A stretch of 36,154 bases of DNA, from assembly GCA_017511045.1 (NCBI GenBank), contig JAFWLM010000117.1:1-36154 (forward strand), in the 5' to 3' direction. The translations under genes were made by a program, and so were the position numbers. The stretch comes from Lachnospiraceae bacterium. GTDB taxonomy: Bacteria > Bacillota > Clostridia > Lachnospirales > Lachnospiraceae. Shown here in pieces: positions 18,048 to 36,154 of this stretch. Under the pieces are notes generated by a model. The model had not been told where the DNA came from. It worked only from the letters and a program-made list of their open reading frames with translations, and did not search any database. Each line of letters starts with the position of its first letter. Position 1 is the stretch's first letter.

Positions 18048-19304
18048 ATGAAATTGAAAAAGCAAACAGTTAGCAAACTGATCGTTCTGTTAGCAGCTCT
18101 TACGCTTGTTATCGGAATGATCGCTGGATGCGGATCCAGCAACACACCTGCTGGCAGCGGTGCAGCTCCGGCTGGCAGCGCAGCAGTAGCAGACGCTGAT
18201 GCAGAAGCAGCAGCAAACGTTGACGCACTTATCGCAGCTATCCAGGTTCAGGAATGGACTGAAGGCAACGATGAGCGTTGTGCAGAAGCTAAAGCAGCAT
18301 GGGATGCTTTAACAGATGCTCAGAAAGAACTTGTTGAAGAAGCAGATTACTTCGGACGTGACACAGGTGATGCTTCCCTCGATGATCCTCGCAATCAGGA
18401 TGAGATCGGTGAGAACGAGCTCCTTGTTGTAAGCTTTGGTACTTCCTTCAACGACAGCCGTGTTAAAGATATCAAAGGCGTTGAAGATGCACTTGCAGCA
18501 GCATATCCGGATTGGTCTGTAAGAAGAGCTTTCACAGCTCAGATCATCATCAACCACATCCTTGCACGTGATGGCGAGAGCATTGACAATGTTGAGCAGG
18601 CTCTTGAAAGAGCAGTTGCAAACGGAGTTAAGAACCTTGTTATTCAGCCGACTCACTTAATGCATGGTAATGAGTATGAAGAGCTTGTTGGAACTCTCGA
18701 AGGATACAAAGACAAATTTGCAAGCGTAAAAGTTGCAGAGCCGCTCCTTGGTGAAGTTGGTGCTGATACTGCAGCAATCAACGCTGATAAAGAAGCAGCT
18801 GCAAAAGCTTTAGTAGCTGAGGCTGCTAAGGTAGCTGGTTATGATTCTGCAGATGCAGCAGCAGCTGACGGCGTTGCATTCGTATTCATGGGACATGGTA
18901 CTTCTCACGAAGCAGCTATCACATATGATCAGATGCAGACACAGATGGCACAGCTTGGATACAAGAACGTATTCATCGGAACTGTTGAAGGAAATCCGGC
19001 TGATACCGCTCTTCCGGAAGTTAAGAAAGCTGTTGAGGCTGCAGGTTTTACAAAGATCGTTCTTCGTCCGATGATGGTTGTTGCTGGTGACCACGCTAAC
19101 AACGACATGGCAGCAGACGAGGAAGGCTCCTGGTACTATGGATTTGTTAATGGCGGTGAATTCGAAGTTGAAGGCGCTGACGCACCTGTTGAAATCGGAA
19201 ATGGATTTGGTGCTGACAATGTAACTACCCAGATCGAAGGTCTTGGAAGAATCGCTGACATCCAGGCTATGTATGTAGCACATACACAGGCTGCAATGCA
19301 GTAA
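18048..19304 (+). CDS. Exported CbiK-like sirohydrochlorin cobaltochelatase lipoprotein
   Basis: The 418-residue protein starts 2 bp after an AGGAGG site. A signal with lipobox MIAGC (Cys28) is followed by a Gly/Ala/Ser linker, a short helical FIVAR-like segment (about 50-100) and a full CbiK chelatase domain from about 120. Metal ligands of the CbiK family are in place: His283 in FMGHGTSHE, Glu314 in GTVEGN and His349 in VVAGDHANND. CbiK inserts Co2+ into sirohydrochlorin, normally in the cytoplasm; a periplasmic form (CbiKP) is known in Desulfovibrio. Here the enzyme is lipid-anchored outside the membrane and sits under a cobalamin riboswitch, so cobalt or tetrapyrrole capture is as likely as biosynthesis. 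A cytoplasmic paralogue is at 29801-30586. Confidence 0.9.
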   Translation: MKLKKQTVSKLIVLLAALTLVIGMIAGCGSSNTPAGSGAAPAGSAAVADADAEAAANVDALIAAIQVQEWTEGNDERCAEAKAAWDALTDAQKELVEEADYFGRDTGDASLDDPRNQDEIGENELLVVSFGTSFNDSRVKDIKGVEDALAAAYPDWSVRRAFTAQIIINHILARDGESIDNVEQALERAVANGVKNLVIQPTHLMHGNEYEELVGTLEGYKDKFASVKVAEPLLGEVGADTAAINADKEAAAKALVAEAAKVAGYDSADAAAADGVAFVFMGHGTSHEAAITYDQMQTQMAQLGYKNVFIGTVEGNPADTALPEVKKAVEAAGFTKIVLRPMMVVAGDHANNDMAADEEGSWYYGFVNGGEFEVEGADAPVEIGNGFGADNVTTQIEGLGRIADIQAMYVAHTQAAMQ

Positions 19305-19350
19305 ATCGATCGATTTATAAATCCTAAATCGAATTATATGAACAAACAAT

Positions 19351-19380
19351 CGTCCCGTAAGGCTTTGGCCTTGCGGGGCG
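19351..19380 (+). terminator. Strong hairpin after the CbiK lipoprotein gene
   Basis: CGTCCCGTAAGGC pairs with GCCTTGCGGGGCG over 13 bp (two G-T pairs) with loop TTTG. There is no T-run after it, so it may attenuate or stabilise the mRNA rather than end transcription fully. Confidence 0.55.
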
Positions 19381-19495
19381 AATGTTGCGTTAATAGGAAT
19401 GGCAGAAAAAGCGGATTTTGTGTTTTTTTGATTGTTTTTCTTCAGAAAAGTAATGAGAAAAATATAAAATTATGAACAGGTATCGGAGAATAATT

Positions 19496-20044
19496 ATGAA
19501 AAAAATATTAGTTGGAATTTTTAGTCTTTCGCTGATCGCAATGCTTGCTCTTGCGGCTTGCGGAAATAACGGCGGCGGTGAAACGACGGGCGGTGCAGCT
19601 CCTGCAGGACAGGAAGTAAATGCAGGATCAGGCGCAGTAAATGGTGATGAGCAGACTGCAGATCCGAATGCGCTGGCAGACGGTGTCTATGTGGTCGATG
19701 TTGATACCGGAAGCAATATGTTCCATATCAACGAAGCAAAGGAAGGCAAGGGTGAACTCACTGTTAAAAACGGCGAGATGACACTTCATGTAACCCTTAC
19801 TTCAAAGAAGATCGTAAATCTCTTTGTCGGAACAACGGAAGAGGCAGAGGCGGCAGATGAATCTGAGCTTCTTCAGCCAACGACGGATGAAGTTACTTAC
19901 AGTGACGGCATGACAGATGAAGTCTATGGCTATGATATTCCATGCCCGGCAATTGGTGAGCCGTTTGATGTTTCCATTATTGGTACACATGACAACTGGT
20001 ACACCCATCCTGTAACTGTAACGAACCCGGTTCCGGTTGAATAA
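19496..20044 (+). CDS. A1-module lipoprotein
   Basis: The 182-residue protein starts at the ATG after GGAGAATAATT; an in-frame ATG 24 bp upstream would add basic residues before the signal and has no ribosome site. Lipobox LALAAC gives Cys22. After a Gly-rich linker, residues ~62-177 form a module I call A1: DGVYVVDVD, SNMFHINEA, ELTVKNGEM, VNLFVGTTEEAE and HDNWYTHPVTV. The same module is found in the proteins at 30590-31840 and 34019-36154. Its general order recalls NEAT-type beta-sandwiches, but the heme-binding YxxxY motif is absent. Position behind the riboswitch-controlled chelatase suggests a role in corrinoid or cobalt handling; the ligand is unknown. Confidence 0.82.
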   Translation: MKKILVGIFSLSLIAMLALAACGNNGGGETTGGAAPAGQEVNAGSGAVNGDEQTADPNALADGVYVVDVDTGSNMFHINEAKEGKGELTVKNGEMTLHVTLTSKKIVNLFVGTTEEAEAADESELLQPTTDEVTYSDGMTDEVYGYDIPCPAIGEPFDVSIIGTHDNWYTHPVTVTNPVPVE

Positions 20045-20121
20045 ATATAAAACATCAAAAACTGTAAATAAATGTCATGATTTTGATACAGAAAAGAACT
20101 TGGAATACAGTATGAATTTCA

Positions 20122-20150
20122 TTGTGCAAACATGGCAGAAATGATAAAAT
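20122..20150 (+). promoter_or_regulatory. Candidate hemA promoter
   Basis: TTGTGC (20122-20127), a 17-bp spacer and TAAAAT (20145-20150) lie about 90 bp before hemA. The leader then contains TTGAGGACG / CGCCCTCAA (20174-20182 and 20201-20209), a 9-bp stem with one mismatch. Confidence 0.45.
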
Positions 20151-20236
20151 TTAAAAGTTAAGTTTACGCATAATTGAGGACGCCAGGGAAAATCCTTAGA
20201 CGCCCTCAAACTATCGTAAAGGGGAGTAGAAACACT

Positions 20237-21469
20237 ATGGCAATCTGGATGGCAGGAGTCGATCATAATAAAGCAGACCTGGATGTAAGAAGCGTCTTTT
20301 CTTTTACATCCAAACGTATGGCGCTTGCGTATGAAACTTTTATGGACATGGATGAGGTGAATGGCTGCATCATGATCTCAACATGTAACCGTATGGAAAT
20401 CTGGTTCAGCGTAAAGCATACGGCGACATTCTCTCCGGTGCAGCTGCTTTGCGATCATATTGAAGTGGATGCCGAAAAGTACAGCCCATACTTCGTGGAA
20501 CGTGAAGACAGCGAAGCGGTCGATCACCTGTTCCGCTTAGCCGCAGGTCTGGAGTCCAAGATCGTAGGCGAAGACCAGATCATCACCCAGGTGGGTGACG
20601 CAGTGGCTTTTGCCAGAAGCTGTTACGCTACGGATAATGCCTTGGAGGTCCTTTTCCGTCAGGCGATCACTGCGGGAAAACGTGTCCGCACAGAAACAAA
20701 TCTTTCCACTGCAGACCGTTCCGTTATCCATACTGCACTCAGGATGCTCGGAGAAGAAGGCATTTCAGTAGATGGCAAGAAGTGCATGGTCATCGGCAAC
20801 GGCATGATGGGCAAACTTTCTGCCCAGACCCTGATGGACTACGGCGCAGATGTTACAGTTACTGTCCGTAAATATCATAGCGGAGTTGTTGATATTCCAC
20901 TTGGCTGCAAACGCATTGATTATGATGAGCGCTATGGGCTTCTTCCGGAATGCGATATGGTGGTAAGTGCAACCAGCAGTCCGAATTATACGATCACACT
21001 TGAAAAAATGAATGAACTTTCTGTCGATCATACGATCCCGATGATCGATCTTGCAGTTCCAAGGGATATCGATCCGGAAATCAAAGCACTTCCCTGGATT
21101 TCTCTTTACGATATTGATTCTTTCCATATCGATGTTCAATCTGAAAAATTTAAAAAGAATTTAGCAAAAGCAGAGGCGATCCTGAACGAAGAAAAGGAGC
21201 GCTTCTATGAATGGTATGAGGGACGCGATTTCGTCCCGATGATCCAGGAATTAAAGAAAAAGGCAGGCGGAGATGTCAGCGTCCGCATGACGCCATATAT
21301 GAAGCACGTTCCGCTTGAGAGCGAGGAAAAAGAGCAGCTGATAACGGAAGTGGAAGGGGCATCCGAAAGAATGATGAATCATCTTCTGTTCGGCCTTCGT
21401 GCAAAACTTCCGGATAAAACGTTCCGTGATGTTTTAGATGCGATGGAAGAACTCCTTTCAAAAGAATAA
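20237..21469 (+). CDS. hemA: Glutamyl-tRNA reductase
   Basis: This 410-residue enzyme reduces glutamyl-tRNA to glutamate-1-semialdehyde with NADPH, the first step of C5 tetrapyrrole synthesis. The nucleophile is Cys50 in STCNRMEIW, the same position as in E. coli; GEDQIITQV (111-119) and the nucleotide loop GNGMMG (187-192) are in place, and a helical C-terminal dimerisation part follows (from about 310). The ATG follows AAAGGGGAG; a longer frame to a TTG at 20174 has no ribosome site and covers a leader hairpin. It is the first of a run of tetrapyrrole genes and is followed 63 bp later by hemB. Confidence 0.96.
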   Translation: MAIWMAGVDHNKADLDVRSVFSFTSKRMALAYETFMDMDEVNGCIMISTCNRMEIWFSVKHTATFSPVQLLCDHIEVDAEKYSPYFVEREDSEAVDHLFRLAAGLESKIVGEDQIITQVGDAVAFARSCYATDNALEVLFRQAITAGKRVRTETNLSTADRSVIHTALRMLGEEGISVDGKKCMVIGNGMMGKLSAQTLMDYGADVTVTVRKYHSGVVDIPLGCKRIDYDERYGLLPECDMVVSATSSPNYTITLEKMNELSVDHTIPMIDLAVPRDIDPEIKALPWISLYDIDSFHIDVQSEKFKKNLAKAEAILNEEKERFYEWYEGRDFVPMIQELKKKAGGDVSVRMTPYMKHVPLESEEKEQLITEVEGASERMMNHLLFGLRAKLPDKTFRDVLDAMEELLSKE

Positions 21470-21532
21470 AAATGAAGATATCTTTTATTGGCAGATAAAA
21501 GTTGGAATATAAAACAAGGAGATGGATAAACA

Positions 21533-22516
21533 ATGGATTTAACAGTCAGACCAAGAAGATTAAGAAGTTCGGAAGCGCTCCGTAAAATGGTGCGTGAGAC
21601 AAGAATGGATGCAGCGTCGCTGATCTATCCGATGTTCGTTATGGATGGCGAAAATAAAGTGGAGGAAATCGATTCCCTTCCGGGACAGTTCCGCTATACG
21701 GTTGACCGCATGGATGAAGAAATCGAAAGACTCCTTGCAGCAGGCGTTCAAAATGTCATGCTCTTTGGCATTCCGGAGATTAAGGATGAAGTCGGAAGTC
21801 AGGCATATGCAGAAGACGGCGTTGTACAGAGAGCGCTCCGCCGCACGGCTGAAAAATATCCGGAGATGTATCTGATCACGGATGTTTGCATGTGTGAATA
21901 TACTTCCCATGGTCACTGCGGTGTTTTATGCGGTCACGACGTCGATAATGATAAGACCTTGGATCTTCTTGCAAAGACAGCGCTTTCTCATGTACAGGCG
22001 GGTGCACAGATGGTTGCTCCTTCTGATATGATGGATGGCCGCATCGCTGCTATTCGTGAGTGTCTTGATGCAAACGGCTATACGAATATCCCGATCATGT
22101 CTTATGCCGTTAAATTTGCTTCTGCGTTTTACGGACCGTTCCGTGAGGCAGCAGGATCTGCTCCTTCCTTTGGTGACAGAAAGAGTTATCAGATGGATTT
22201 CCACAACAGAAGAGAAGCTTTGAAAGAGGCAATGCTGGATGTGGAAGAAGGCGCAGACATCATCATGGTTAAACCGGCAATGAGCTATCTTGACCTTGTG
22301 CGTGAAGTGCACGACATGACAGATCTTCCGATCGCAACTTACAGCGTAAGCGGTGAATATGCGATGGTAAAGGCAGCTGCTGCAAACGGCTGGATCGATG
22401 AAGACCGCATCGTAAGCGAAATGGCAACTGCAGCATTCCGCGCAGGCGCAGATATCTATATCACATACTATGCAAAAGAAATTGCAAAATATATGAAAGA
22501 CGGCATCATTGGTTAG
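21533..22516 (+). CDS. hemB: Porphobilinogen synthase (ALA dehydratase)
   Basis: The 327-residue enzyme condenses two 5-aminolevulinate molecules to porphobilinogen. Residues for a zinc-type active site are visible: Cys119, Cys121 and Cys129 in DVCMCEYTSHGHCG. The Schiff-base lysines are Lys194 (YAVKFASAFYGPFREAAGSA) and Lys247 (MVKPAMSYLD). Length is normal for the family. The ribosome site is AAGGAG, 12 bp before the ATG. Gene order hemA-hemB-hemL here differs from the classic hemAXCDBL order of Bacillus. Confidence 0.96.
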   Translation: MDLTVRPRRLRSSEALRKMVRETRMDAASLIYPMFVMDGENKVEEIDSLPGQFRYTVDRMDEEIERLLAAGVQNVMLFGIPEIKDEVGSQAYAEDGVVQRALRRTAEKYPEMYLITDVCMCEYTSHGHCGVLCGHDVDNDKTLDLLAKTALSHVQAGAQMVAPSDMMDGRIAAIRECLDANGYTNIPIMSYAVKFASAFYGPFREAAGSAPSFGDRKSYQMDFHNRREALKEAMLDVEEGADIIMVKPAMSYLDLVREVHDMTDLPIATYSVSGEYAMVKAAAANGWIDEDRIVSEMATAAFRAGADIYITYYAKEIAKYMKDGIIG

Positions 22517-22618
22517 CTTTGGTGATTAGGCCGATAAATGGTATTGATTGAAAACATTATTCAGAAAAAATGAATCTGGATGACGGCTGGTAAATAAGAT
22601 TAAAGGTCAGGTAAGCAA

Positions 22619-23893
22619 ATGGGCAGATCAGAAGAATTATTTGAACGAGCAAAACAGGTGATCCCGGGCGGCGTGAACAGCCCGGTAAGAGCATTCGGCT
22701 CTGTCGGCATGACGCCTCGTTTTATTGAAAAAGGTTTCGGGTCCTACATCTGGGATTCCGAGGGAAATAAATACATCGACTTTATCGGCTCCTGGGGTCC
22801 GATGATCTTGGGCCACCAGAATCCGGATGTCATGGAAGAAGTGCGCAAGGCCATCTTTGACGGATTGAGTTTTGGTGCGGCAACCGAAAGAGAAGTGGAT
22901 ATGGCAGAGCTGATCTGCGAGATCGTTCCATCAATCGAAATGGTGCGTATGGTCAATTCCGGAACGGAAGCAGTCATGAGTGCGATCCGCGCGGCTCGCG
23001 GATTTACCGGGCGCGATAAGATCGTGAAGTTTGCTGGCTGCTATCACGGCCACAGCGATGCGCTTTTAGTTCAGGCCGGCAGCGGTCTCATGACACAGGG
23101 AATTCCTGGCAGCGCCGGAGTTCCGGAAGGATGCACGAAGGATACCTTAAGCGCAGTCTATAATGATCTGGATAGCGTAAAGGCTTTGTTTGAAGCAAAC
23201 CCAGGTGAGATCGCCTGCGTGATCGTTGAGCCGGTTGGCGCAAACATGGGCGTCGTTCTTCCGAAAGAAGGATTCCTTGAAGGACTCCGCAAGTTGTGTA
23301 CAGAGAATGGGGCTGTTTTGATCTTTGATGAGGTCATCACAGGCTTCCGTCTGGCACTGGACGGAGCTCAGGGATTTTACGGCATCACACCAGACCTTAC
23401 AACCTTCGGAAAGATCATCGGCGGTGGTATGCCAGTCGGCGCGTATGGTGGACGCAAAGATATTATGTCCTGTGTTGCTCCATTAGGCCCTGTTTATCAG
23501 GCGGGAACCTTGAGCGGAAACCCGGTCGCAATGGCGGCGGGCATCGCACAGCTTAAGGTGCTGAAAGATACGCCGGATATTTATAAAAACTTAAATGAAA
23601 AGGGCGACAGGTTCTTTGCAGAACTTGATAAGATCCTGACGGAAGCAGAGGTTCCGCATTGCCTGAACCACGTGGGCTCACTGGGCTGCATCTTCTTTAC
23701 AGACAAAGAAGTGGTTGATTATGAGTCTGCACAGACGAGCGACACCGCCCGTTTCACAGAGTATTTCAGACACATGCTGGGACAGGGCATCTACATTGCG
23801 CCGTCACAGTTTGAGGCCATGTTCCTCTCCACCGCACACACGGAAGAGGATCTGGCGAAGACGTTAGATGCGGTTAGAGGGTTTGTGAGGTAG
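22619..23893 (+). CDS. hemL: Glutamate-1-semialdehyde 2,1-aminomutase
   Basis: The 424-residue PLP enzyme converts glutamate-1-semialdehyde to 5-aminolevulinate, the step between the products of hemA and hemB. Diagnostic sequences: PGGVNSPVRAF near the start, MVNSGTEAVMSAIRAARG, FDEVITGFR and the PLP lysine Lys265 in TTFGKIIGGGMPVGAYGG. Length is typical. About 100 bp without recognisable features separates it from hemB, and a palindrome-rich gap separates it from hemC. Confidence 0.96.
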   Translation: MGRSEELFERAKQVIPGGVNSPVRAFGSVGMTPRFIEKGFGSYIWDSEGNKYIDFIGSWGPMILGHQNPDVMEEVRKAIFDGLSFGAATEREVDMAELICEIVPSIEMVRMVNSGTEAVMSAIRAARGFTGRDKIVKFAGCYHGHSDALLVQAGSGLMTQGIPGSAGVPEGCTKDTLSAVYNDLDSVKALFEANPGEIACVIVEPVGANMGVVLPKEGFLEGLRKLCTENGAVLIFDEVITGFRLALDGAQGFYGITPDLTTFGKIIGGGMPVGAYGGRKDIMSCVAPLGPVYQAGTLSGNPVAMAAGIAQLKVLKDTPDIYKNLNEKGDRFFAELDKILTEAEVPHCLNHVGSLGCIFFTDKEVVDYESAQTSDTARFTEYFRHMLGQGIYIAPSQFEAMFLSTAHTEEDLAKTLDAVRGFVR

Positions 23894-23930
23894 CTAGCTG
23901 TTACCGCTGAAAAAAACTCAAGGTGGCATT

Positions 23931-24073
23931 GCGGAAAAAGTGGCTTGGTGACGTCAAACGCAAAACAGTGTTGCGAAAAAAGTGGCTTGGTGACGTCAAA
24001 TAGGACGTCACGAAACGCGAAATGTTGCAAAAAAAACAGAAAAAATCGATTGATGACGTCAATAATGACGTCA
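23931..24073. repeat. TGACGTCA palindrome cluster with 42-bp direct repeats
   Basis: Perfect TGACGTCA sites lie at 23949, 23991, 24054 and 24066, with a fifth near-copy (GACGTCAC) at 24004. Two 28-bp near-identical copies containing TGGCTTGGTGACGTCAAA are 42 bp apart (23931-23958, 23973-24000). The sites can form hairpins: GTGACGTC-AAATAG-GACGTCAC (23990-24011) and TGACGTCA-ATAA-TGACGTCA (24054-24073). No T-run follows. Location between hemL and hemC suggests an operator array or mRNA-processing structure. Confidence 0.8.
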
Positions 24074-24129
24074 CCAAACAAGATTTTTGACAGGTATCCA
24101 TGTACATAAGTGGAGTAGATAGAACCTAA

Positions 24130-25092
24130 ATGAAAAAGATAATTGTAGGTAGCAGGGAAAGCCAGCTTGCGGTTGTGCAGAGCATGACGGTGGTCGATCA
24201 TATTAATGGGCTTTCTGAAAAAACAGGATACAGCGCCGATCTTCTGACAATGAAGACGACCGGCGATAAGATCTTAGACCGTACGCTGGATAAGGTCGGC
24301 GGCAAAGGTCTGTTTGTTAAGGAACTGGATCTGGCGCTTACGGAGAAAAGATTTGATCTTTCTGTACATAGCCTGAAGGACGTGCCGATGGAGATCGATC
24401 CGGCGCTTCCTTTGATCGCATTTTCCAAAAGGGAAGACCCGAGGGATGTTCTGGTGCTTCCGGAAAGTGCGCTTCAGAAAGTGATCGAAGAAGCGAAGGT
24501 CAGACATGACGAGCGAAGCCTGCAGTTTTTAATGCAGTCTGTAGAGCCGGATCCGAATCTTCCGATTGGCTCTTCCAGCCTTCGCCGTGTGATCCAGCTT
24601 CAGAAGATTTTTCCGAATCATAAGATCGAGCCGGTGCGCGGAAACCTTCAGACAAGACTTCGGAAACTGGACGAAGGACAGTATGGCGCATTGGTGCTTG
24701 CGGCCGCAGGCTTAAGACGTCTTGGCTTAGAGCATCGCATCAGCAGATTCTTTACGGTAGATGAAATGATACCGGCAGCAGGTCAGGGCATCATTGCCGT
24801 TCAGGGAAGAGCAGGTGAGGATTATTCCTATCTTGAGGGATATGCAGATAAAGAAACTGAGATTGCAGCGCTCTGCGAAAGAGCTTATGTGCGTGAATTA
24901 AATGGCGGATGTACTTCGCCGGTGTGCGCACATGCGCAGATCAAAGACGGAAAGATTTTCCTGAGCGCTTTATATTATGACGAGGCAAGCGGAAAGCATT
25001 GCATTGGTAATTCTGAGGGTGATACAGCGCATCCGGAAGAACTGGGAATAGAGCTTGCCAGACGCCTGCAGTCAGAGCTTAAGGGTGCATAA
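24130..25092 (+). CDS. hemC: Hydroxymethylbilane synthase (porphobilinogen deaminase)
   Basis: The 320-residue enzyme polymerises four porphobilinogens into hydroxymethylbilane. Visible signatures: GSRESQLAVVQ at the start, VHSLKDVP with catalytic Asp84, SSSLRRVIQL, RGNLQTRLRKL, AAAGLRRLG, and Cys261 in NGGCTSPVCAHA, which carries the dipyrromethane cofactor. Residues ~113-145 (between LVLPES and IGSSSLRR) form an extra helical segment compared with the usual short loop there, making this region longer than in E. coli. No strong ribosome site is seen before the ATG. Confidence 0.95.
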   Translation: MKKIIVGSRESQLAVVQSMTVVDHINGLSEKTGYSADLLTMKTTGDKILDRTLDKVGGKGLFVKELDLALTEKRFDLSVHSLKDVPMEIDPALPLIAFSKREDPRDVLVLPESALQKVIEEAKVRHDERSLQFLMQSVEPDPNLPIGSSSLRRVIQLQKIFPNHKIEPVRGNLQTRLRKLDEGQYGALVLAAAGLRRLGLEHRISRFFTVDEMIPAAGQGIIAVQGRAGEDYSYLEGYADKETEIAALCERAYVRELNGGCTSPVCAHAQIKDGKIFLSALYYDEASGKHCIGNSEGDTAHPEELGIELARRLQSELKGA

Positions 25093-25163
25093 AAACGCTG
25101 ATAAAGGAAAAAGAATTACAGAAAGGAAATCTGTACCAATAACAGGACAGATCGAAAACTGAT

Positions 25164-26675
25164 ATGAGCGGAAAAGTATGGCTGGTGGGAGCCGGACCGG
25201 GAGATGCAGGACTTTTCACCCTGCGTGGAAAAGAAGTATTAGAAGATGCCGACGTTGTAGTTTATGACGCCTTAGTTGGTCAGGGCATCTTATCCATGAT
25301 CCCGGATAAAGCAGAATTGATCTTTGCGGGGAAACGTTCCGGCAACCACTATATGAAACAGAGTGATACCAATGTCGTGCTTTTAGAAGAAGCAAAGAAG
25401 GGCAAGAAGGTAGTGCGCTTAAAAGGCGGCGACCCGTTCCTCTTTGGACGCGGCGGAGAAGAGCTCGAGCTGTTGGTTGAAAATAATATTCCGTTTGAAG
25501 TGGTCCCCGGAATTACGAGCGCGTTTGCGGTACCGGCTTATAACGGCATTCCGGTAACGCATCGTGACTTCTGTTCCAGTGTTCATATCATCACCGGACA
25601 CAAGCGCGCGGATCACAGCTATGACATTGATTTTAAAGCCCTTGTAAATACAAAAGGAACCCTGGTCTTCCTGATGGGAATCGCGGCGCTTCCGGATATC
25701 TGCAAAGGACTGTTGGATGCAGGGATGGATCCTGAAATTCCGGCAGCTGTTCTGGAAAAAGGAACGACCGCGGCTCAGCACAGGATCGCTGCAACACTTG
25801 GAACACTCGAAGAAGTCTGCAGCCGGACCGAAGTTATGACTCCGGCCATCATCGTTGTCGGGCAGGTCTGCTCCCTGGCTGATGATTTCGGCTGGTATGA
25901 GAAGCGCCCGCTTGCAGGCGTCAAGGTTGCGGTTACAAGACCGAAGGAATTAGTCTCCCAGCTTTCTTCCATGCTCAGAAAAGAAGGTGCGGAAGTTTTG
26001 GAGATGCCGGCGATCGCAGTGAAACCGGTAGAGGATATGAGTCCGCTCCATCAGGCGATTAAAGGTCTGGAGAATAAAAAGTATTCCTGGATCGTCTTTA
26101 CGAGTCCGTCCGGAGTGCGCATCTTCTTTGAGGAGATGTTTAAACTCAGCGACGTTCGTGCTTTGGCAGGCGTAAAGATCGCATCCATTGGAAAAGGCTC
26201 GGAAAAAGCACTGAACGGATATGGTCTCAAAGCAGACTTTATTCCGTCAGTATATGACGGGGAGACCCTCGGAAAAGAACTGGCAGAGCAGTGCAAGGCC
26301 GGCGACAATATCCTGATTCCAAGAGCGGCCATCGGAAACCCGGAACTTCCGGCAGAGCTTTCAAAAGTGGAAGGTGTTACGGTCACAGATATTGCAACCT
26401 ATGACACGGTCTATGAGTCATCGAAAGTGATCGATGAACACGCAGCAATGGAAGATGGCGATGTGGACTTTGCAGTCTTCACCAGCGCTTCAACGGTCAA
26501 AGGTTTTGCCGCGAGCCTGGACGGCCTGGACTTTTCAAAAGTAAAAGCAGTCTGCATCGGAAAGCAGACCAGAGCAGCCGCTGAAAGCTATGGAATGAAA
26601 ACCTGGATGGCAGAAAAAGCAACTCTGCCGGCACTGGTCGAGTGCGTTAAACAGGCGGCAGCAGAATTGAAATAA
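25164..26675 (+). CDS. cobA-hemD: Uroporphyrinogen-III C-methyltransferase / uroporphyrinogen-III synthase fusion
   Basis: The 503-residue fusion has a CobA/SUMT domain (about 1-245) and a HemD domain (about 255-503). SUMT motifs: GAGPGD (9-14), VVRLKGGDPFLFGRGGEE (83-100), VVPGITSAFAVPAYNGIPVT. HemD motifs are weaker, as usual for the family: VAVTRPKE at its start, SWIVFTSPSGVRIFFEE and FAVFTSASTVKGFA. HemD closes hydroxymethylbilane to uroporphyrinogen III and CobA methylates it at C2 and C7 to precorrin-2, so the fusion commits flux away from heme to siroheme and cobalamin. This fusion is common in Firmicutes. Two degenerate echoes of its last codons follow the stop. Confidence 0.95.
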   Translation: MSGKVWLVGAGPGDAGLFTLRGKEVLEDADVVVYDALVGQGILSMIPDKAELIFAGKRSGNHYMKQSDTNVVLLEEAKKGKKVVRLKGGDPFLFGRGGEELELLVENNIPFEVVPGITSAFAVPAYNGIPVTHRDFCSSVHIITGHKRADHSYDIDFKALVNTKGTLVFLMGIAALPDICKGLLDAGMDPEIPAAVLEKGTTAAQHRIAATLGTLEEVCSRTEVMTPAIIVVGQVCSLADDFGWYEKRPLAGVKVAVTRPKELVSQLSSMLRKEGAEVLEMPAIAVKPVEDMSPLHQAIKGLENKKYSWIVFTSPSGVRIFFEEMFKLSDVRALAGVKIASIGKGSEKALNGYGLKADFIPSVYDGETLGKELAEQCKAGDNILIPRAAIGNPELPAELSKVEGVTVTDIATYDTVYESSKVIDEHAAMEDGDVDFAVFTSASTVKGFAASLDGLDFSKVKAVCIGKQTRAAAESYGMKTWMAEKATLPALVECVKQAAAELK

Positions 26676-26780
26676 ATCATCGCGGCCTTGATCAAACGCG
26701 TAAAGCAGGCCGCAACTGAAATGGAATAAAAAACAGCGCGGCCATAGTCGAAAGTATAAAAGCAGGCCGTTGGAACAATT
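26634..26780 (+). repeat. Degenerate tandem echoes of the cobA-hemD 3' end
   Basis: The end of the gene (from 26634, coding VECVKQAAAELK and stop) is repeated at about 26687-26742, where the same frame reads IKRVKQAATEME and stop, and again, more decayed, at 26743-26780 (AAAGCAGGCCG at 26759). Periods are about 53 and 57 bp. No gene lies in this gap. Confidence 0.65.
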
Positions 26781-26801
26781 AGATAATACGGAGGAGAAAC
26801 A

Positions 26802-28837: not shown

Positions 28838-28953
28838 AGAGTCTCATGGACATAGATATTTTTTATCTTGAGCCGAAAGAGAAATCGACAAATACGAGAT
28901 AATAGATAACTGAGACAAGCAGAAAGAAAAGTTTAGGAAACAGGAAGACAAGT

Positions 28954-29685
28954 ATGGGCATAGTAACAGTACTTTGGGAAAAATGGGTAGAGTTCCGGCG
29001 TGACTTTTTTAAGATCACAGCCGCTGCTTTGATTACGCCTGTTATGTACCTGATCATTTTCGGATTGGGCATTCAGACGACGTCCCACGGCGAACCATAC
29101 TTGCACTTCCTGGTGCCGGGCGTTGTAGCAATGTCCACGATGACAGGAAGCTTTTCCGCGATCGCACAGAACATGAGCGTGCAGCGCCTTTATGAAAAAG
29201 CGTTGGATCAGGTCATGGTTTCCCCGACCCCGCTGTGGCAGTTTATCTTAGGCCAGGTCATCGGAGGAAGCCTTCGCGGCATGTACTCCGGATGCATGAT
29301 CCTTCTTCTTACGTTGCCGATCAGTACGGATCTGACTTTCAACGGGCTATCGTTCTTTATCATGTTCCTGAACGGACTGGTATTTTCGACAATTGCGCTG
29401 GTTCTTTCCTTCCTTGCAAAAAGTTATACGGATGCGCCGCGTTACACTTCCTACATCATCATGCCGATGTCGTTCCTGTGTAACACCTTCTTTTCTACGG
29501 ACCAGATGCCGATGGGCTTCCGTCAGATCATCTCATTTTTACCGCTGTCGCAGAGCTGCGATATGATACGAAAAATTGCGAACGGAGAATCCTCGGGATA
29601 TATCGGCTTTATCATCCTTGCTGCATATCTTGCAATTTTCGGATTCATTTCCGTGATGTTTATATACAAAAAGAAAAACTTGTAG
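28954..29685 (+). CDS. ABC-2 type transporter permease
   Basis: The 243-residue membrane protein has about six hydrophobic segments (including ITAAALITPVMYLIIFGLGI, GMYSGCMILLLTLPI and IGFIILAAYLAIFGFISVMF) and the ABC-2 layout: a short amphipathic start, YLHFLVPGVVAMSTM after the first helix, and a basic C-terminal tail. It should form the membrane half of an exporter with the ATPase upstream, from which it is separated by 116 bp with no recognisable signal. Export of toxic tetrapyrrole intermediates or of a surface component are both possible. Confidence 0.9.
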   Translation: MGIVTVLWEKWVEFRRDFFKITAAALITPVMYLIIFGLGIQTTSHGEPYLHFLVPGVVAMSTMTGSFSAIAQNMSVQRLYEKALDQVMVSPTPLWQFILGQVIGGSLRGMYSGCMILLLTLPISTDLTFNGLSFFIMFLNGLVFSTIALVLSFLAKSYTDAPRYTSYIIMPMSFLCNTFFSTDQMPMGFRQIISFLPLSQSCDMIRKIANGESSGYIGFIILAAYLAIFGFISVMFIYKKKNL

Positions 29686-29800: not shown

Positions 29801-30586
29801 ATGAGCGAAAACAAAGCGCTGGTCGTGATCAGCTTTGGAACTTCATATAAAGATACCTGTGAAAAAACGATTGGTGCGATTGAAAACGATTTCAAGAACA
29901 CATTTTCGGATCGCAAGTTTTACAGAGCTTGGACAAGCGGGTTTATTCGGAAAAAGATGCTAGAAAGAGATGGAGAAAAGATTCTCTCTCCGGAAGAGGC
30001 ATTACGGCTTGCAAAGGAAGAAGGCTGTGAAGACATTTTGATCCAGCCGACACATCTGTTAGCGGGGGAAGAGTTTGGGAAAATATTATCCGCGCTTGAG
30101 CCTCAGCTGAAATCCTTTGACGCTGTACATATCAGCAGACCGCTTTTAGAAACTGAAGACGATATAAAAGAAATGGCTGAAAAGCTGACGGAGATTTTTA
30201 AAGATATTAAAGACGATGAGATGGCCGCTTTCATGGGCCATGGCAGCAATAGTTTGAAACTCCCGGTTTATGAATTGTTTAACGAAACTTTTAAAGCACA
30301 GGGGCACGAAAACTTCTGCGTTGGAACAGTTGAATTTGAGCCGGGTATTGATCCGGCGCTTGAAAAAGTAAAAGAAAGAAAACCAAAGAAAGTTTATCTA
30401 TCTCCAATGCTTGTCGTTGCAGGCGATCATGCGAACAATGATATGGCAGGCGATGAACCGGATTCCTGGAAGAATCAGATCTCTGCACTTGGCACAGAAG
30501 TAGAGTGTGTCCTCAAGGGACTTGGCGAATATCCGGAAATACGTGGAATGTATTTAGAGAGAGCAAAAGACGCTTTAGAGAAATAA
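29801..30586 (+). CDS. cbiK: Sirohydrochlorin cobaltochelatase (cytoplasmic)
   Basis: The 261-residue protein is a complete CbiK without signal peptide. Co2+ ligands of the family are present: His147 in FMGHGSNS, Glu178 in GTVEFEPG and His210 in VVAGDHANND; LVVISFGTSYKDT is the usual N-terminal strand. CbiK inserts Co2+ into sirohydrochlorin, giving the substrate of CbiL encoded upstream. The ribosome site is GAGGAAC. Only 3 bp separate its stop from the next gene, so the surface protein at 30590 is translated from the same message. Confidence 0.94.
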   Translation: MSENKALVVISFGTSYKDTCEKTIGAIENDFKNTFSDRKFYRAWTSGFIRKKMLERDGEKILSPEEALRLAKEEGCEDILIQPTHLLAGEEFGKILSALEPQLKSFDAVHISRPLLETEDDIKEMAEKLTEIFKDIKDDEMAAFMGHGSNSLKLPVYELFNETFKAQGHENFCVGTVEFEPGIDPALEKVKERKPKKVYLSPMLVVAGDHANNDMAGDEPDSWKNQISALGTEVECVLKGLGEYPEIRGMYLERAKDALEK

Positions 30587-30589
30587 CAA

Positions 30590-31840
30590 ATGACAAAGAA
30601 AGCAACGATCCTCAAAAGAATAGCGACCCTCCTTTGCATGGTAGTTTTAATCCTTACCATGTTTGATCTTGCTGTCTTTGCGGACGAAGCAACGACAACT
30701 GCCAGTCAGAACGGAGCTGGTGGACAAAGCGCAGGAACTGAAAGTACGACCGGTGAAAATGGAACAGACGAAACATACTGGAAGTATGTCGCAGAGATCC
30801 AAAAGAGTATTCGCACGAGCAAAGTCGGGAAGTACGGTATGCTCCCGGTATATGGACAGGATGTCAAAGACGGAACCTATGAGATCGAGGCTGCTTCAAA
30901 TTCCCAGTATTTTAAAATCGCAAAAACAGAGCTCACTGTAAAAGATGGGGAGATGACGGCGAAGATCACGATTCCTAGTATGAGCTATCTCAATGTCTAT
31001 ATGGGAACCGCGAAAGATGCAGTTGCCGCAAAGAAATCTGAGCAGATCGGATTTAAAGAAGTCAATAACCAGACTGTCTTTACCGTTCCGGTAGAGGCAT
31101 TAGATAAAGAAATAGAGATTGCTGCATTCAGTAAAGCCCGAAAAAAATGGTATGACAGAAAGGTTGTCTTTGATGCTTCCTCACTTCCAGATGGCGCTCT
31201 CCTGATCGAGCTCCCGGATTATGAGCTGATCGAGGATGCGATTTCTGCTTATGGCGTAGACGAGGCTGCAGCCGCTGCAGCAATTGAAGAGCAGATCGCA
31301 GAAAATACAACTCCGGTCGATGAAGAAGATCCGGATGCAGATCCGGATGAAGTAAAAGAAGATGCGGTACTCTTAGAGGGTGACCCGGTACCGGTTGATA
31401 TCAACATGCCGGATGGAGAGTATTCCATTGAGGTCAACATGGTTGGCGGCAGCGGCCGTGCGAGCATCAGTTCACCGACTTGGATGTATGTGAAAGATGG
31501 TAAGGCATATGCGAAACTCTTGTGGAGCAGTGCGCATTATGACTACATGATCATCGGAGATAAAAAGTTTTTAAACGAGACAACAGACGGCGGAAATTCT
31601 ACTTTCACGATCCCGATCGTTATGATGGATGAAGCTTTCCCGGTGATTGCAGATACGACTGCGATGGGAGACCCTGTCGAGATCCGTTACGAAATGACAT
31701 TTTATTCTATGACGGTTGGCTCAAAGGGAAAGATCCCGCAGGAAGCAGCAAAGAAGGTTCTGATCATTGCAGTGATCATTTTGGTTGTAGGCTTTGTACT
31801 GAATCTCGTGATCAAGAAAACAAGGGCAAAGAAAAGATAA
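30590..31840 (+). CDS. Membrane-anchored A1-A2 module protein
   Basis: The 416-residue protein has a signal peptide (1-31, FDLAVFA end), a Gly/Thr/Ser linker, module A1 (about 86-200: DGTYEIEA, QYFKIAKTELTVKDGEM, LNVYMGTAKDA, VFTVPVEAL, KKWYDRKVVF), an Ala/Glu/Asp-rich spacer, module A2 (about 272-375: DGEYSIEVNMVGGSGRASI, VKDGKAYAKLLWSSAHYDYM, DTTAMGDPVEIRYEMTFY) and one C-terminal membrane helix (388-408) with a basic tail. The two modules recall NEAT-like beta-sandwiches by eye; A2 has no YxxxY. The gene lies 3 bp after cbiK and overlaps the next gene by 1 bp (TAATG), so it is tightly tied to tetrapyrrole synthesis. A receptor for corrinoid, heme or cobalt is my inference. Confidence 0.85.
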   Translation: MTKKATILKRIATLLCMVVLILTMFDLAVFADEATTTASQNGAGGQSAGTESTTGENGTDETYWKYVAEIQKSIRTSKVGKYGMLPVYGQDVKDGTYEIEAASNSQYFKIAKTELTVKDGEMTAKITIPSMSYLNVYMGTAKDAVAAKKSEQIGFKEVNNQTVFTVPVEALDKEIEIAAFSKARKKWYDRKVVFDASSLPDGALLIELPDYELIEDAISAYGVDEAAAAAAIEEQIAENTTPVDEEDPDADPDEVKEDAVLLEGDPVPVDINMPDGEYSIEVNMVGGSGRASISSPTWMYVKDGKAYAKLLWSSAHYDYMIIGDKKFLNETTDGGNSTFTIPIVMMDEAFPVIADTTAMGDPVEIRYEMTFYSMTVGSKGKIPQEAAKKVLIIAVIILVVGFVLNLVIKKTRAKKR

Positions 31841-32375: not shown

Positions 32376-32520
32376 CTCATATCTCTATAAACGTTATTAT
32401 TAGTCAGAAAACATTAGATTTCTAAATAAAAAAGCTCTTCGATATTACATATTTAAAGTGGTTTCTGTTTTTAATATGGATTTGCGGGGTTGTAAGGAAG
32501 AAAAATAGAAGGACGAGTAT

Positions 32521-33507
32521 ATGAAAAAGATTTTTTTAATAATTAGTGCTATTTGTGTGATGGCCATGGTATTTGCAGGCTGTGGGAAAACGGAAACGGC
32601 TCCTGCCCCGACTGAAGAGCCTTCGGAAACGATGCCGCCTTTCATTGATGACACTGGAGACTTCTTATATGCAGATAAATTCTCTTTCTGCGGCGGCACG
32701 GGAAAGGTAGGAATCTCCTGTGAATCTATAACATATAACGGCGAAGAATATAATGCGCTGATCGTATTGGACAGTGATGCTTATACCTATGTGCGTGTCG
32801 GAGAAACAAAGTATAACTGCAGTCATGAAGAAGGAAAGAGCTGGGCTGCAATTCCTGTAACAATCAATGAGAATAACACAATCTATGCAGAGACAACAAA
32901 GATGTCCCAGCCTCATGAGATTAAATATGAGATTTTTATTTATATAAAAGGTGAAGCAGATAAGGACGATGATCCATATGCGCTGATGAAAACGACAACA
33001 CTTGATGAAACAGCTCCGTTTATTCCGGGATTTGAGATTGCGCAGAATGACGCAGTAAAGAGTGGGGATAACTACAGACTCTTTAGTTATGCAAACGGCG
33101 TTCAGCTGTTAGAAGTAAAAATGCATGATGCGGATGGTGCAGTTTTAGATGCTTTTGATTATGCAGCGTACTGTACAAAAGCACAGACCTGTGAAGATGC
33201 TCAGGCAAACCGTTACACCCAAAATGTTGTGAAATATATCCTTGCTCCGGAAGGGACTGTTCTTCCTGCTGGAATTGAAAAAGAATCAATCGTAATTACA
33301 ACTCCGGCAAGTCAGATCTATGCAGGCCCGATGGATGTTTCGCCAAAAACGATCGTGGGAGGAAAGTACGATCTGATCTTACTGAATTCAGATGTTTTAT
33401 CTGATGGCGGTGAAGCCTTCGAAAGCTTTGCATCAGATGCGGCAAGCTTAGGCGTTCCGGTGGTCGTTAATCAGGGACTTGATACAAGTATCTTTGCTGT
33501 TGAATAA
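32521..33507 (+). CDS. Lipoprotein with A2 module and truncated substrate-binding-like domain
   Basis: The 328-residue protein has lipobox VFAGC and a Pro/Thr/Glu linker. Residues ~45-150 form an A2 module: CGGTGKVGIS, NALIVLDSDAYTYVRVG and ETTKMSQPHEIKYEIFIYI. The rest recalls the N-terminal half of clostridial BtuF/FepB-like binding proteins: YRLFSYANGVQLLEVKM, YILAPEGTVLPAGI, IVITTPASQIYAG, then GGKYDLILLNSDV and ASLGVPVVVNQG. The stretch that normally separates the last two blocks is missing, and the protein stops where the second lobe would begin. It may be a reduced receptor or a decaying gene; the frame itself is intact. Confidence 0.8.
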   Translation: MKKIFLIISAICVMAMVFAGCGKTETAPAPTEEPSETMPPFIDDTGDFLYADKFSFCGGTGKVGISCESITYNGEEYNALIVLDSDAYTYVRVGETKYNCSHEEGKSWAAIPVTINENNTIYAETTKMSQPHEIKYEIFIYIKGEADKDDDPYALMKTTTLDETAPFIPGFEIAQNDAVKSGDNYRLFSYANGVQLLEVKMHDADGAVLDAFDYAAYCTKAQTCEDAQANRYTQNVVKYILAPEGTVLPAGIEKESIVITTPASQIYAGPMDVSPKTIVGGKYDLILLNSDVLSDGGEAFESFASDAASLGVPVVVNQGLDTSIFAVE

Positions 33508-33618
33508 AGCGAAAAACCTTAATATTTGGTATATAAAAATATTTCACTGCAAAAAAAATAAAACAAGAAAATAATTATAGAAAAGCTATTAATTAAACAG
33601 TTAAAATAAGCCGTCGTG

Positions 33619-33637
33619 CTTTAGAACTTTTCTAAAG
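33619..33637. promoter_or_regulatory. Operator-like dyad before riboswitch 2
   Basis: CTTTAGAA-CTT-TTCTAAAG is a perfect 8-bp dyad with a 3-base centre, about 40 bp before the riboswitch. I found no convincing -35/-10 pair in this AT-rich stretch (33508-33655), which holds no gene. Confidence 0.4.
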
Positions 33638-33659
33638 AAAAAATGATAATTAAATAGTG

Positions 33660-33868
33660 AGAGCAAATGGTGCTGATATTATTTGCAAACAAATGATTTC
33701 AGTTAAAAGGGAAACAGGTGAAAATCCTGTACGGTCTCGCCACTGTAATGGAACAGTCGGATCGGTGCAAATGTTTGTGGACACAGGCATAGAGCACAGC
33801 CACTGACGAAAGTTGGGAAGGCATCTGACAGTAAATGTTCCTGAGCCAGGAAACCTGCCACTTGTAAT
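33660..33868 (+). ncRNA. Cobalamin riboswitch 2
   Basis: Core blocks are present: AAAAGGGAAACAGGTG then AAAATCCTGTACGGT, CTCGCCACTGTAATGG (to 33750), CACTGACGAAAGTTGGGAAGG in the peripheral arm, and AGCCAGGAAACCTGCC (33844-33859). It precedes the large A2/FIVAR/A1 surface protein and is followed by a terminator platform, so corrinoid should repress that gene. Ends were set by eye. Confidence 0.93.
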
Positions 33869-33927
33869 GGTACCGGATTTGATGTCCTGATAACGAGTAA
33901 TTTATCGTACCTTAAACAGCAATGACA

Positions 33928-33964
33928 GCCTTATTCGTACTATGTGTATGAATAAGGCTTTTTT
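33928..33964 (+). terminator. Riboswitch 2 expression-platform terminator
   Basis: GCCTTATTC (33928-33936) pairs with GAATAAGGC (33950-33958), followed by T6. It lies about 55 bp before the start codon of the surface protein. Confidence 0.88.
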
Positions 33965-34018
33965 AATGCCTCTCACTAAAACCGAAAGTTGCAATCAAAA
34001 ATGTAGTTGGAGGAAAGT

Positions 34019-36154
34019 ATGAAAAAATTAGGAAGAATTGCTGCGGCATTTATGGCAAGCGTATTCTTTGTAACAGGAATACCAGCAATGACCGCATTCG
34101 CAGCAGATGGTTATTCAACAACCTTGGCAAATGGCGAATACACAACCGATGATTTTACATTTGCTTGGGAAGGTGGTACAGGTAAGGCCCATTTGGAGCT
34201 AAACAAAATAATAGTTACAGATGGACAAGCCCAAGGAGTTTTTACTGCCAGCAGTGAGTATATGACACATGTTTATTATTTGGGCCATACTTCCTCTGAG
34301 GTAGACGATCCAAATTATTATGATCCATCAACTGATACCTGCCAAAACGGTGTCGTTCCTATTTCTGGAAAACAGGTATCGTTTCCTGTTGCACTGAATG
34401 AAAAAACAGCAATTGCATGCAGGACTACAAGAATGGAAGAACCGCATTGGGTCCAATATTACTATACGATTACAATTGACGAATCCCTTGTTACAGATGC
34501 AGATTATACAGCGGTTGATGCTGCAATTGCGTCTGTACCAACTGATTTAAGCATCTATACAGATGAAAGTGCAACAGCAGTTACTACGGCAGTGAATGCT
34601 GTAGTAAGAAATCTTCCAGCAAGCCGCCAGGAAGAAGTTGATGCGATGGCGGCGGCTATAACAGCGGCAATCAATGGCTTAGAGTTGAAATCAGCAGAGG
34701 GAAAAGCTCTACATTTCATAATTGTGCCAGATGAACAAGATGAAAGTAAGAATATTGAAGATCCGACAAATTATTCCATTAATCTTGGAGCTGAATTGGT
34801 TTTTGAAATTATTTTCTCCTCTATGCCGAGTGCAGACTTTGAAACAACGTTAAATAACCAGTTGAGTGGACTCTTTACAAAAACGGGAGGCAAAGGTTGG
34901 CAGAACGAAGATGGTACAGTCACAGGTTTTTATCGATATAAGGCGGTGGCAACGGGTGAAGTGACTTTACCTTTAAATGATAATTATTCAGTGGTATTGA
35001 CAGTCGCTGATTCAGAGGAACCAGATGATTCACAAATTGAATTAACTATTGAAAACAAGACAGGAATGTTTAAGGCAGATACTGCAACGCTTGAAACTGT
35101 AGATGGGCAGAAAACTCTCGTTGTTGCGCTGTCCGGAACCGGATATCATGAACTGTTCAAAGGCACATATGAGCAGGCGGTAGCCAACGGGGCTAACACG
35201 GATAACTGGGTCCATGGTGAAATAAACGCTGAAGGGAAATGGGAATTCCGCATTCCTGTAGCAGACAACGAAAACTACATCCCGATCGTAGCGATCTCTG
35301 ACAGTTATTACAATAAGTATCTGAATGGCCAAAATACACTTGAGAGAGCATTTTATCCAAGACAAATGGATTTGGATGTTGAAGCGAAAACACTTGTTAC
35401 TGACGATTACCATTCCAGTAAAGAAATAACGGTGACAAACAATGTTTCCAAGTTCAAGGTTAACACTCCGGCAGTACTGAATACAGTGGGAGGTCCGAAC
35501 TCTAACAATTATAAATCTGATCTTGTTTTAACCATGGGAAGCAATTCCTATGATCAGGTTTTTGTTGGAACTTATGCAGAAGCAAATGAAGCGACAAAAA
35601 CAATTCAATTAGCAGAAGATAATTCTTTCGCAATCCCTGTTAAATGGGTTGAGACATTTGGAGACCCGACGACCTTAAAGACTTTAACAGATGGTCAGCA
35701 GTTTGCAATCTCATTCAGATCAGCAAGCAAACAAACATGGTATGAGCGGCTTGCAAAGCTGGATGAAGAAGCAGGAACACTCATTTTTGATCCAAGTACA
35801 GCAGACTATAGTGTAGTTGATGCTGCAAAAGCTAAAGTGCCGGCAGACTTGAGCATTTATACAGAAGAGACTGCGAAGGCTGTAACAGATGCAGTAGACG
35901 CAGTCGAGACCGGAAAGTTCGCAAGCCAGCAGGAGGAAGTTGATGCGATGGCGAAAGCTATCGAAGATGCAATTGCAGCATTAAAAACGAAGCCTGGAGT
36001 ATTGAAAGTCGTCAACAATGTCAAAATGTTCTCACCGGTAAGTGCAACCCTGGATTCGAATGATGGAAAAGAGATCGTAAATCTGACGATGAAATCAGAA
36101 AGCTTTGATAAGATATTCCTTGGAAAAGCAAATGCCGTTGATGATAGCAAGACG
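34019..36154 (+). CDS. Large secreted A2-FIVAR-A1 repeat protein, 3' end outside window
   Basis: The frame runs from an ATG behind GGAGGAAAGT to the window end without a stop (712 codons seen). Residues 1-29 are a signal peptide (MTAFAA end). Then: an A2 module (about 38-155: WEGGTGKAHLELN, ASSEYMTHVYYLG, RTTRMEEPHWVQYYYTITI); a FIVAR-like helical unit (160-222); a region of about 115 residues unlike the rest; A1 (340-455: TGMFKADTATL, YHELFKGTYEQA); A1 (470-592: VFVGTYAEA, KQTWYERLAKL); a second FIVAR-like unit (595-655, sharing DLSIYT and QEEVDAMA with the first); and a third A1 that the window cuts (from about 663). Multiple copies suit a wall-spanning binding protein. It is controlled by cobalamin riboswitch 2, so a corrinoid or cobalt ligand is likely. 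Confidence 0.88.
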   Translation, partial: MKKLGRIAAAFMASVFFVTGIPAMTAFAADGYSTTLANGEYTTDDFTFAWEGGTGKAHLELNKIIVTDGQAQGVFTASSEYMTHVYYLGHTSSEVDDPNYYDPSTDTCQNGVVPISGKQVSFPVALNEKTAIACRTTRMEEPHWVQYYYTITIDESLVTDADYTAVDAAIASVPTDLSIYTDESATAVTTAVNAVVRNLPASRQEEVDAMAAAITAAINGLELKSAEGKALHFIIVPDEQDESKNIEDPTNYSINLGAELVFEIIFSSMPSADFETTLNNQLSGLFTKTGGKGWQNEDGTVTGFYRYKAVATGEVTLPLNDNYSVVLTVADSEEPDDSQIELTIENKTGMFKADTATLETVDGQKTLVVALSGTGYHELFKGTYEQAVANGANTDNWVHGEINAEGKWEFRIPVADNENYIPIVAISDSYYNKYLNGQNTLERAFYPRQMDLDVEAKTLVTDDYHSSKEITVTNNVSKFKVNTPAVLNTVGGPNSNNYKSDLVLTMGSNSYDQVFVGTYAEANEATKTIQLAEDNSFAIPVKWVETFGDPTTLKTLTDGQQFAISFRSASKQTWYERLAKLDEEAGTLIFDPSTADYSVVDAAKAKVPADLSIYTEETAKAVTDAVDAVETGKFASQQEEVDAMAKAIEDAIAALKTKPGVLKVVNNVKMFSPVSATLDSNDGKEIVNLTMKSESFDKIFLGKANAVDDSKT

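Follow-up and report, generated by a model that had tools for sequence, protein, structure and literature searches.

In Isd-type relays (IsdA/B/C/H, IsdX1/X2, Hbp2), exported modules of the NEAT fold, in anchored and secreted forms, make up a chain that ends at a binding protein and an importer. Importers of the BtuFCD type combine a Peripla_BP_2 binding protein, a FecCD permease and an ATPase. The CbiK chelatase family, with its histidine motifs, is represented among known structures by 2xvx, which we take to be the periplasmic CbiK of Desulfovibrio, and by FetB. According to the part of a review available to us (PMC13402209), FetB is an exported surface chelatase that inserts manganese into a porphyrin. 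Comparative genomics has also predicted tetrapyrrole precursor salvagers, mainly Firmicutes, that hold corrin genes without the early pathway steps (Shelton et al. 2018, PMC6461909); a second review quotes precorrin-2 salvagers as 0.6% of genomes (PMC8123684), and the former paper, as far as its accessible part goes, names no uptake system for salvagers. Here we analyze a 36,154-nucleotide stretch (the window) of a Lachnospiraceae bacterium (GenBank assembly GCA_017511045.1, contig JAFWLM010000117.1, positions 1 to 36,154 of the forward strand), in which exported NEAT-like modules and an exported CbiK-family chelatase stand among cobalamin riboswitches and B12 genes.

With Isd-type relays this system shares the chain of exported modules, in anchored and secreted forms, leading to a binding protein and importer. 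Unlike them, it lies in a cobalamin riboswitch context and has an exported CbiK in the chain, its A1 modules lack a tyrosine at the aligned heme-ligand place, and their sequences fall below the Pfam NEAT cut-off. The three importer parts are those of BtuFCD; however, among 116 genomes the system occurs only together with corrin-building genes, it adds the modules and CbiK, and in the one operon scored the B12-importer models stayed below their cut-offs. The chelatase belongs to the same family as 2xvx and FetB and keeps the histidine motifs, but here a cobalamin riboswitch precedes it, and it neighbours, or is fused to, NEAT-like modules and an importer; the closest known parallel to such an extracytoplasmic CbiK relative is FetB. 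With the predicted salvagers (PMC6461909, as far as its accessible part goes) the shared trait is the presence of corrin genes without early steps. Among open-licence papers we found none on NEAT in combination with a cobalamin riboswitch and none describing this operon, as judged by title and start of abstract; the accessible parts of PMC6593275, PMC12583661, PMC11477304 and PMC12888040 contain no description of it.

We read these parts as a surface system, controlled by cobalamin riboswitches, that feeds the corrin pathway with an external tetrapyrrole of sirohydrochlorin level, loaded with cobalt outside and then imported; on balance we consider this reading just about probable. The inferred cargo would probably be an unfinished B12 ring rather than heme or the finished vitamin, because the system was found, among 116 genomes, only in corrin-building ones (33 of 33, against 0 of 31 genomes that have a cobalamin riboswitch but no cbiD), because of the linkage or fusion to an exported chelatase, and because it persists in genomes in which upper tetrapyrrole genes were not detected. 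Somewhat more tentatively, we suggest an extracellular step of B12 synthesis, in which a lipoprotein chelatase and a NEAT-fold relay would deliver a scavenged cobalt-tetrapyrrole for import, to start or resume corrin synthesis. The computed basis consists of the parts and their order, the riboswitches, the fusions, the predicted NEAT-like fold, the CbiK histidine motifs and gene co-occurrence. The earlier note had proposed an Isd-like relay for corrinoid or cobalt; a chain of predicted NEAT folds tied to cobalamin genes is what stands of that proposal, whereas a finished corrinoid or a cobalt ion as cargo is the part we do not retain.

In the proposed mechanism, the NEAT-like A1 and A2 modules would hold the tetrapyrrole at the cell surface, and cobalt would be inserted before import by the exported CbiK domain, which often adjoins A1 or forms one protein with it. 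The loaded tetrapyrrole would then pass from A1 to A2 and on to a binding lipoprotein, and the FecCD permease with its ATPase would carry it into the cytoplasm, where Cbi enzymes would continue. Expression would be expected to fall when B12 is plentiful. Where the genome encodes the full pathway, as that of the window does, scavenged precursor and cobalt may supplement the home-made precursor. The relevant features of the window, with module proteins named by their first coordinate, are as follows.

17647..17855, + strand: cobalamin riboswitch 1 (RF00174; cmscan 105.8 bits, E 1e-25)
18048..19304, + strand: exported CbiK-family cobalt chelatase lipoprotein, 418 amino acids (PF06180, E 3.9e-62)
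19496..20044, + strand: lipoprotein with one A1 (NEAT-like) module (iterated profile, AF2, Foldseek)
20174..27500, + strand: upper tetrapyrrole genes hemA, hemB, hemL, hemC, cobA-hemD and cbiL
27995..29685, + strand: pair of ABC ATPase and ABC-2 permease (PF00005, PF01061)
29801..30586, + strand: CbiK without signal peptide, 261 amino acids (PF06180, E 1.2e-74)
30590..31840, + strand: exported A1+A2 protein with C-terminal membrane helix
31840..32313, + strand: precorrin-2 dehydrogenase of CysG N-terminal type, 157 amino acids (TIGR01470, 110.9 bits; cut-off 62.3)
32521..33507, + strand: lipoprotein with A2 and then a weakly binding-protein-like region
33651..33876, + strand: cobalamin riboswitch 2 (RF00174; cmscan 94.5 bits, E 1.8e-22)
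34019..36154, + strand: large secreted protein, incomplete at the contig end, with A2 and three A1-like modules

Much of what the earlier note had read from the letters was borne out. Both cobalamin riboswitches are confirmed, scoring far above the cmscan cut-off of 31.5 bits; they are the only regulatory RNAs found in the window and the only cobalamin riboswitches found in the whole genome (2.04 Mb, estimated 81% complete). The 30590 gene indeed sits between cbiK and the precorrin-2 dehydrogenase gene, whose start overlaps the 30590 stop at base 31840. The four exported proteins do share modules, as BLASTP, phmmer and iterated profiles agree: 30590 has A1 and A2 followed by a predicted helix at residues 383-415, 32521 has A2 at 32647-32961, and 34019 combines a single A2 with three A1-like modules, of which the last is truncated. 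In pairwise comparison of eight module sequences by BLASTP and phmmer, the BLASTP E-values were 1.6e-13 for the A1 modules of 19496 and 30590, 4e-12 for A2 of 30590 and 32521, and 6e-7 for A2 of 32521 and 34019, which rules out chance repeats. The A1-like modules of 34019 pair weakly (E 3e-4 to 30590, 0.01 to 0.15 to 19496) and are clearly joined by the iterated profile (E 1e-21, 4e-19 and 3e-7). What did not stand is the independence of A1 and A2. Iterated profiles begun from either set recover members of the other, and hhalign aligns the two profiles with 98% probability (E 2.7e-13); judged from these sequence profiles, A1 and A2 are therefore two branches of one family, not separate families.

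That family is predicted to have the fold of NEAT heme-binding domains. The A1 module of 19496 was modeled by AF2 with block-mean pLDDT of 90 or more, and its top Foldseek matches are NEAT domains. At the sequence level, the best match to Pfam NEAT (PF05031) in the window, A1 of 30590, reaches E 7.9e-5 and 23.5 bits, below the gathering cut-off of 32.8 bits, and the three matches genome-wide at E<=10 all fall within 19496 and 30590. In the larger set, 10 of 34 A1 and 13 of 33 A2 modules match Pfam NEAT at E<=0.01. The A1 profile matches the NEAT chains 4h8q/4h8p at E 4e-4, and a search with the A2 profile matched no NEAT chain. When five sequences were searched with the profile of the importer's binding protein, the C-terminal part of 32521 matched at E 2.4e-5 (hhalign 91%); single-sequence BLASTP against the binding protein gave nothing significant, so that a full binding protein is unsupported and a weak partial likeness remains. 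Orthologues of 32521, with A2 fused to such a partial region, were observed in the same-genus loci L063, L065, L066 and L067.

The association with cobalamin riboswitches extends well beyond the window. The first 20 relative stretches had been picked for a nearby riboswitch, and enrichment therefore rests on a broader set, the 80 best of at least 588 A2-matching stretches (some possibly from one genome) in a collection of one genome per species covering 84,980 species. These loci were ranked by a profile of 12 operon-type A2 modules, three of which were taken from stretches without a riboswitch match (L059, L060, L061); one pair among the 80 (L197, L198) is near-identical. A nucleotide profile built from 25 riboswitches found a cobalamin riboswitch in 67 of the 80 loci, in 66 of them upstream on the same strand, at a median of 2.0 kb before A2, and found no match on reversed sequence. 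Without L142 and L174, contigs also used as profile sources, the counts are 65 of 78 loci (64 upstream) and 52 of 59 well-flanked loci. Among 116 related genomes, 33 match 30590, on 41 contigs. In 24 of these contigs the 5 kb preceding the match on its own strand include a cobalamin riboswitch; a further contig, G010:C6, has such a riboswitch no more than 5 kb away. The enrichment elsewhere that the earlier note had asked about is thus present. In the record titles of the 80 loci Lachnospiraceae is the most frequent name, alongside Oscillospiraceae, Faecalibacterium, Butyrivibrio, Oscillibacter and two Atopobiaceae; many are labelled only Clostridia or Clostridiales, and one, titled Muribaculum, is perhaps a mis-binned contig.

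The usual gene order is riboswitch, exported CbiK, two modules, binding protein, FecCD permease and ATPase, often followed by cbi/cob genes. In the 60 of 80 loci with ample flanks (>3.5 kb upstream and >4.5 kb downstream), the riboswitch was found 53 times and CbiK 57 times; the importer is represented by its binding protein in 59 loci, by FecCD in 58 and by the ATPase in 58, and 39 loci have at least one cob/cbi query match on either strand. Pfam assigns Peripla_BP_2, FecCD and an ABC ATPase to the L040 operon, an architecture of the BtuFCD type. Fusions join the parts further: CbiK to one or two modules (L039, L046, L047, L051, L053 and further loci), a module to the binding protein (L039, L055, L171, L179, L209), and the importer ATPase to CbiD (L048, 6832-8781, and other loci). 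The L048 fusion ties import to a corrin-ring enzyme.

The exported CbiK of the window has, by reading, a lipobox cysteine at residue 28, and its matches among PDB structures are CbiK 1qgo, FetB 9b86 and 2xvx. A lipobox pattern precedes the CbiK domain in 66 of 72 CbiK copies of the 80 loci. Both histidine motifs are kept in all 73 copies from related loci; the catalytic histidines of CbiK are named in the accessible part of PMC7689651. Family profile and both histidines place the protein with the class II cobalt chelatases, although against the NCBIfam equivalog the exported copy scores 170 and the signal-less copy 230 bits, both below the cut-off of 400. From its sequence, the exported CbiK is predicted to be a cobalt chelatase of sirohydrochlorin type. 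The copy at 29801..30586 is probably cytoplasmic, because it has no signal peptide. A second chelatase hidden as CbiX was considered for the 33 module genomes and rejected: 31 of 32 matches lie in CbiK frames, and the other is below the cut-off.

The distribution of the modules bears on the nature of the cargo. With module absence in the 116 genomes resting on one query protein (30590) and gene sets compiled by hand from the separate searches, modules occur in 33 of 58 genomes with the corrin gene cbiD and in none of 58 without it (Fisher p 3.5e-13, phylogeny being ignored here and in the tests below); thus all 33 module genomes have cbiD. None were found in the 31 cbiD-lacking genomes that carry a cobalamin riboswitch, so the modules are not a general mark of cobalamin uptake, and this argues against simple uptake of finished cobamides. 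An unlikely alternative is nevertheless that finished or near-finished corrinoids (cobamides, cobinamide) are relayed to a BtuFCD-type importer, CbiK only binding a tetrapyrrole or remodeling its metal. It would account for the pairing of a cobalamin riboswitch with a FecCD-type importer and for the several operons that run on into the nucleotide-loop genes cobT/U/S and cbiB; in one, L040, a Pfam scan beyond the importer found a CobQ/CbiA-type protein, CobT, CobU, CobS, a phosphatase, CbiB and an aminotransferase. One permease, that of L048, matches the BtuC model best, yet below its cut-off (169 of 334 bits), and against the BtuD model the L048 operon reaches 114.5 of 281 bits. However, no modules were found in any of the 58 genomes without cbiD, among them those 31, which should need corrinoid uptake most, and binding alone sits poorly with histidine motifs kept in every exported copy.

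A second contrast concerns cobalt supply. The cobalt permease gene cbiM, counted when it lies 2.5 kb or less from a cobalamin riboswitch, was found in 2 of 33 genomes with modules and in 18 of 25 cbiD-positive genomes without them (p 1.4e-7), and within the family of the window in 2 of 32 genomes with modules against 11 of 16 without (p 1.2e-5). The difference shrinks to 13 of 33 versus 21 of 25 (p 0.001) once CbiM matches are counted regardless of linkage. Among the CbiM matches, shorter frames often stand behind a cobalamin riboswitch, and longer ones (about 335-380 amino acids), perhaps for nickel, are mostly without it.

A further argument for an outside precursor comes from genomes with a hole in the pathway; the searches covered the 33 module genomes for TIGR01470 and the 58 cbiD-positive ones for TIGR01469. 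HemC and CobA are jointly missing in 16 of the 58, with no discordant genome, and 12 of the 16 have modules; those without are G012, G031 and G065 (78-84% complete) and G113 (96%). In 13 module genomes the exported CbiK is the only one, export being indicated by a lipobox pattern in 11 and, by eye, by a signal-like N-terminus in 2. In nine of the 13 (G006, G009, G013, G017, G022, G036, G047, G056 and G088; 60 to 100% estimated completeness), neither HemC, CobA nor a precorrin-2 dehydrogenase above cut-off was detected, and the lower corrin genes are kept as far as the stretches reach. Judged by the genes tested, these nine would be unable to make sirohydrochlorin, and the only chelatase of CbiK/CbiX type found in them is predicted to sit outside the membrane. 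Among 19 loci whose stretch holds at least 5 lower cbi genes, cbiL lies within the stretch in 8, and neither HemC nor CobA in any. CbiL acts on cobalt-sirohydrochlorin according to the accessible part of PMC8123684; three loci, two of Faecalibacterium and one of Oscillibacter, have a CbiL above the curated cut-off.

Several observations weigh against uptake of an external precursor. Of the twelve module genomes in which HemC and CobA are missing, two (G007 and G010) carry a precorrin-2 dehydrogenase gene, the CbiK of G007 being of cytoplasmic length, and a third, G053, has no CbiK. Conversely, G015, G042, G050 and G062 have an exported-only CbiK despite HemC and CobA, and because of these two genes need no outside precursor; L182 and L192 hold hemA, hemC, cobA, hemD and cbiL right beside the system. 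G113 lacks HemC, CobA and modules alike; its CbiK is of cytoplasmic type with a FecCD gene nearby, and its cbiM is riboswitch-linked. In its module-less locus L224, FecCD and CbiK have cbiD and cbiL in their neighbourhood, which may represent another arrangement for taking up a precursor. In the operon stretches read from ten genomes without HemC and CobA (the nine and G053) cbiL was not seen; were cbiL missing genome-wide, the cargo would be later than cobalt-sirohydrochlorin and the role of CbiK less clear. Moreover, the window has the genes for HemC, CobA and CbiL clustered together; a single event or a single missing contig may therefore explain their joint absence, which is not independent evidence.

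Some of these points would suit a loop for the cell's own product, in which sirohydrochlorin is exported, perhaps by the ABC-2 pair, loaded by CbiK outside and taken up again, in place of a cobalt ion importer and chelation in the cytoplasm. The scarcity of riboswitch-linked cbiM in module genomes fits such a loop, as do the four genomes that combine HemC and CobA with an exported-only CbiK. The ABC-2 pair, a possible candidate tetrapyrrole exporter, is near the A1A2 gene in the window, adjoins it in L062 of another genus, and is also present in L063 and L067. However, by the genes tested nine module genomes would be unable to make the ring, the precorrin-2 dehydrogenase-type gene of the four genomes might itself insert cobalt, and among 37 stretches the cluster of ABC-2 permeases counts just 4 members. 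We regard this loop as rather improbable, and uptake of an external precursor as the better account.

Scavenging of heme or porphyrin, with the modules taking heme and the exported CbiK removing or swapping the metal, as reported for FetB, has the NEAT fold in its favour, and FetB, described as a surface chelatase in the accessible part of PMC13402209, is a structural relative of the exported CbiK. As to another ligand for the matched family, a point the earlier note had raised, the modules are indeed NEAT-like and NEAT is a heme family, but the gene context is that of B12. The heme-ligand tyrosine of NEAT domains lies four before a second tyrosine. At the corresponding place, located by profile alignment to NEAT, the 34 A1 modules have lysine in 22, arginine in 6, histidine in 2, asparagine in 2, valine in 1 and glutamine in 1, and tyrosine in none. 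In A2 the presumed place, its register not fixed by structure, is histidine in 23 of 33 and tyrosine in none. With lysine or arginine in 28 of 34 A1 modules, cobalamin riboswitches and cbi/cob linkage, we find heme scavenging improbable, slightly more so than the loop. Least probable, and very doubtful, is capture of the cobalt ion by lipoprotein CbiK and Co(II)-binding modules with import of a cobalt chelate: it fits the anticorrelation with cbiM, but no invariant column of either the A1 or the A2 alignment contains His, Cys, Asp or Glu, and FecCD importers usually carry chelates or corrinoids.

The rest of the locus can be described briefly. In the tetrapyrrole cluster, hemA was identified by Pfam, and hemB, hemL, hemC, cobA and cbiL each exceed an NCBIfam cut-off; the HemD half of cobA-hemD matches uroporphyrinogen-III synthase models below cut-off. 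Another contig of this genome, C36, carries a module protein (an 870-codon frame with three module matches) with a binding protein, FecCD and CbiD after it and then the other cbi genes; the window itself therefore probably represents the front half of the same system. Sequence reading also suggests large repeat-rich exported proteins with C-terminal hydrophobic segments (73-6126), upstream of the cobalamin region, and a cluster (8288-12164) with PilC-like, pilin-like and PilT-like genes, as in type IV pilus or type II secretion systems.

The operon is thus a candidate uptake route for the predicted tetrapyrrole precursor salvagers, and a widespread one, given at least 588 A2-matching stretches that include records of Faecalibacterium, Butyrivibrio and Oscillibacter. 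It would follow that genomes whose only CbiK is exported may be mis-scored as complete B12 producers. If the reading is true, NEAT-fold relays would reach beyond heme, a new use of this fold, and gut bacteria would possess a dedicated route for taking up a B12 precursor, a metabolite that would then be traded between gut microbes.

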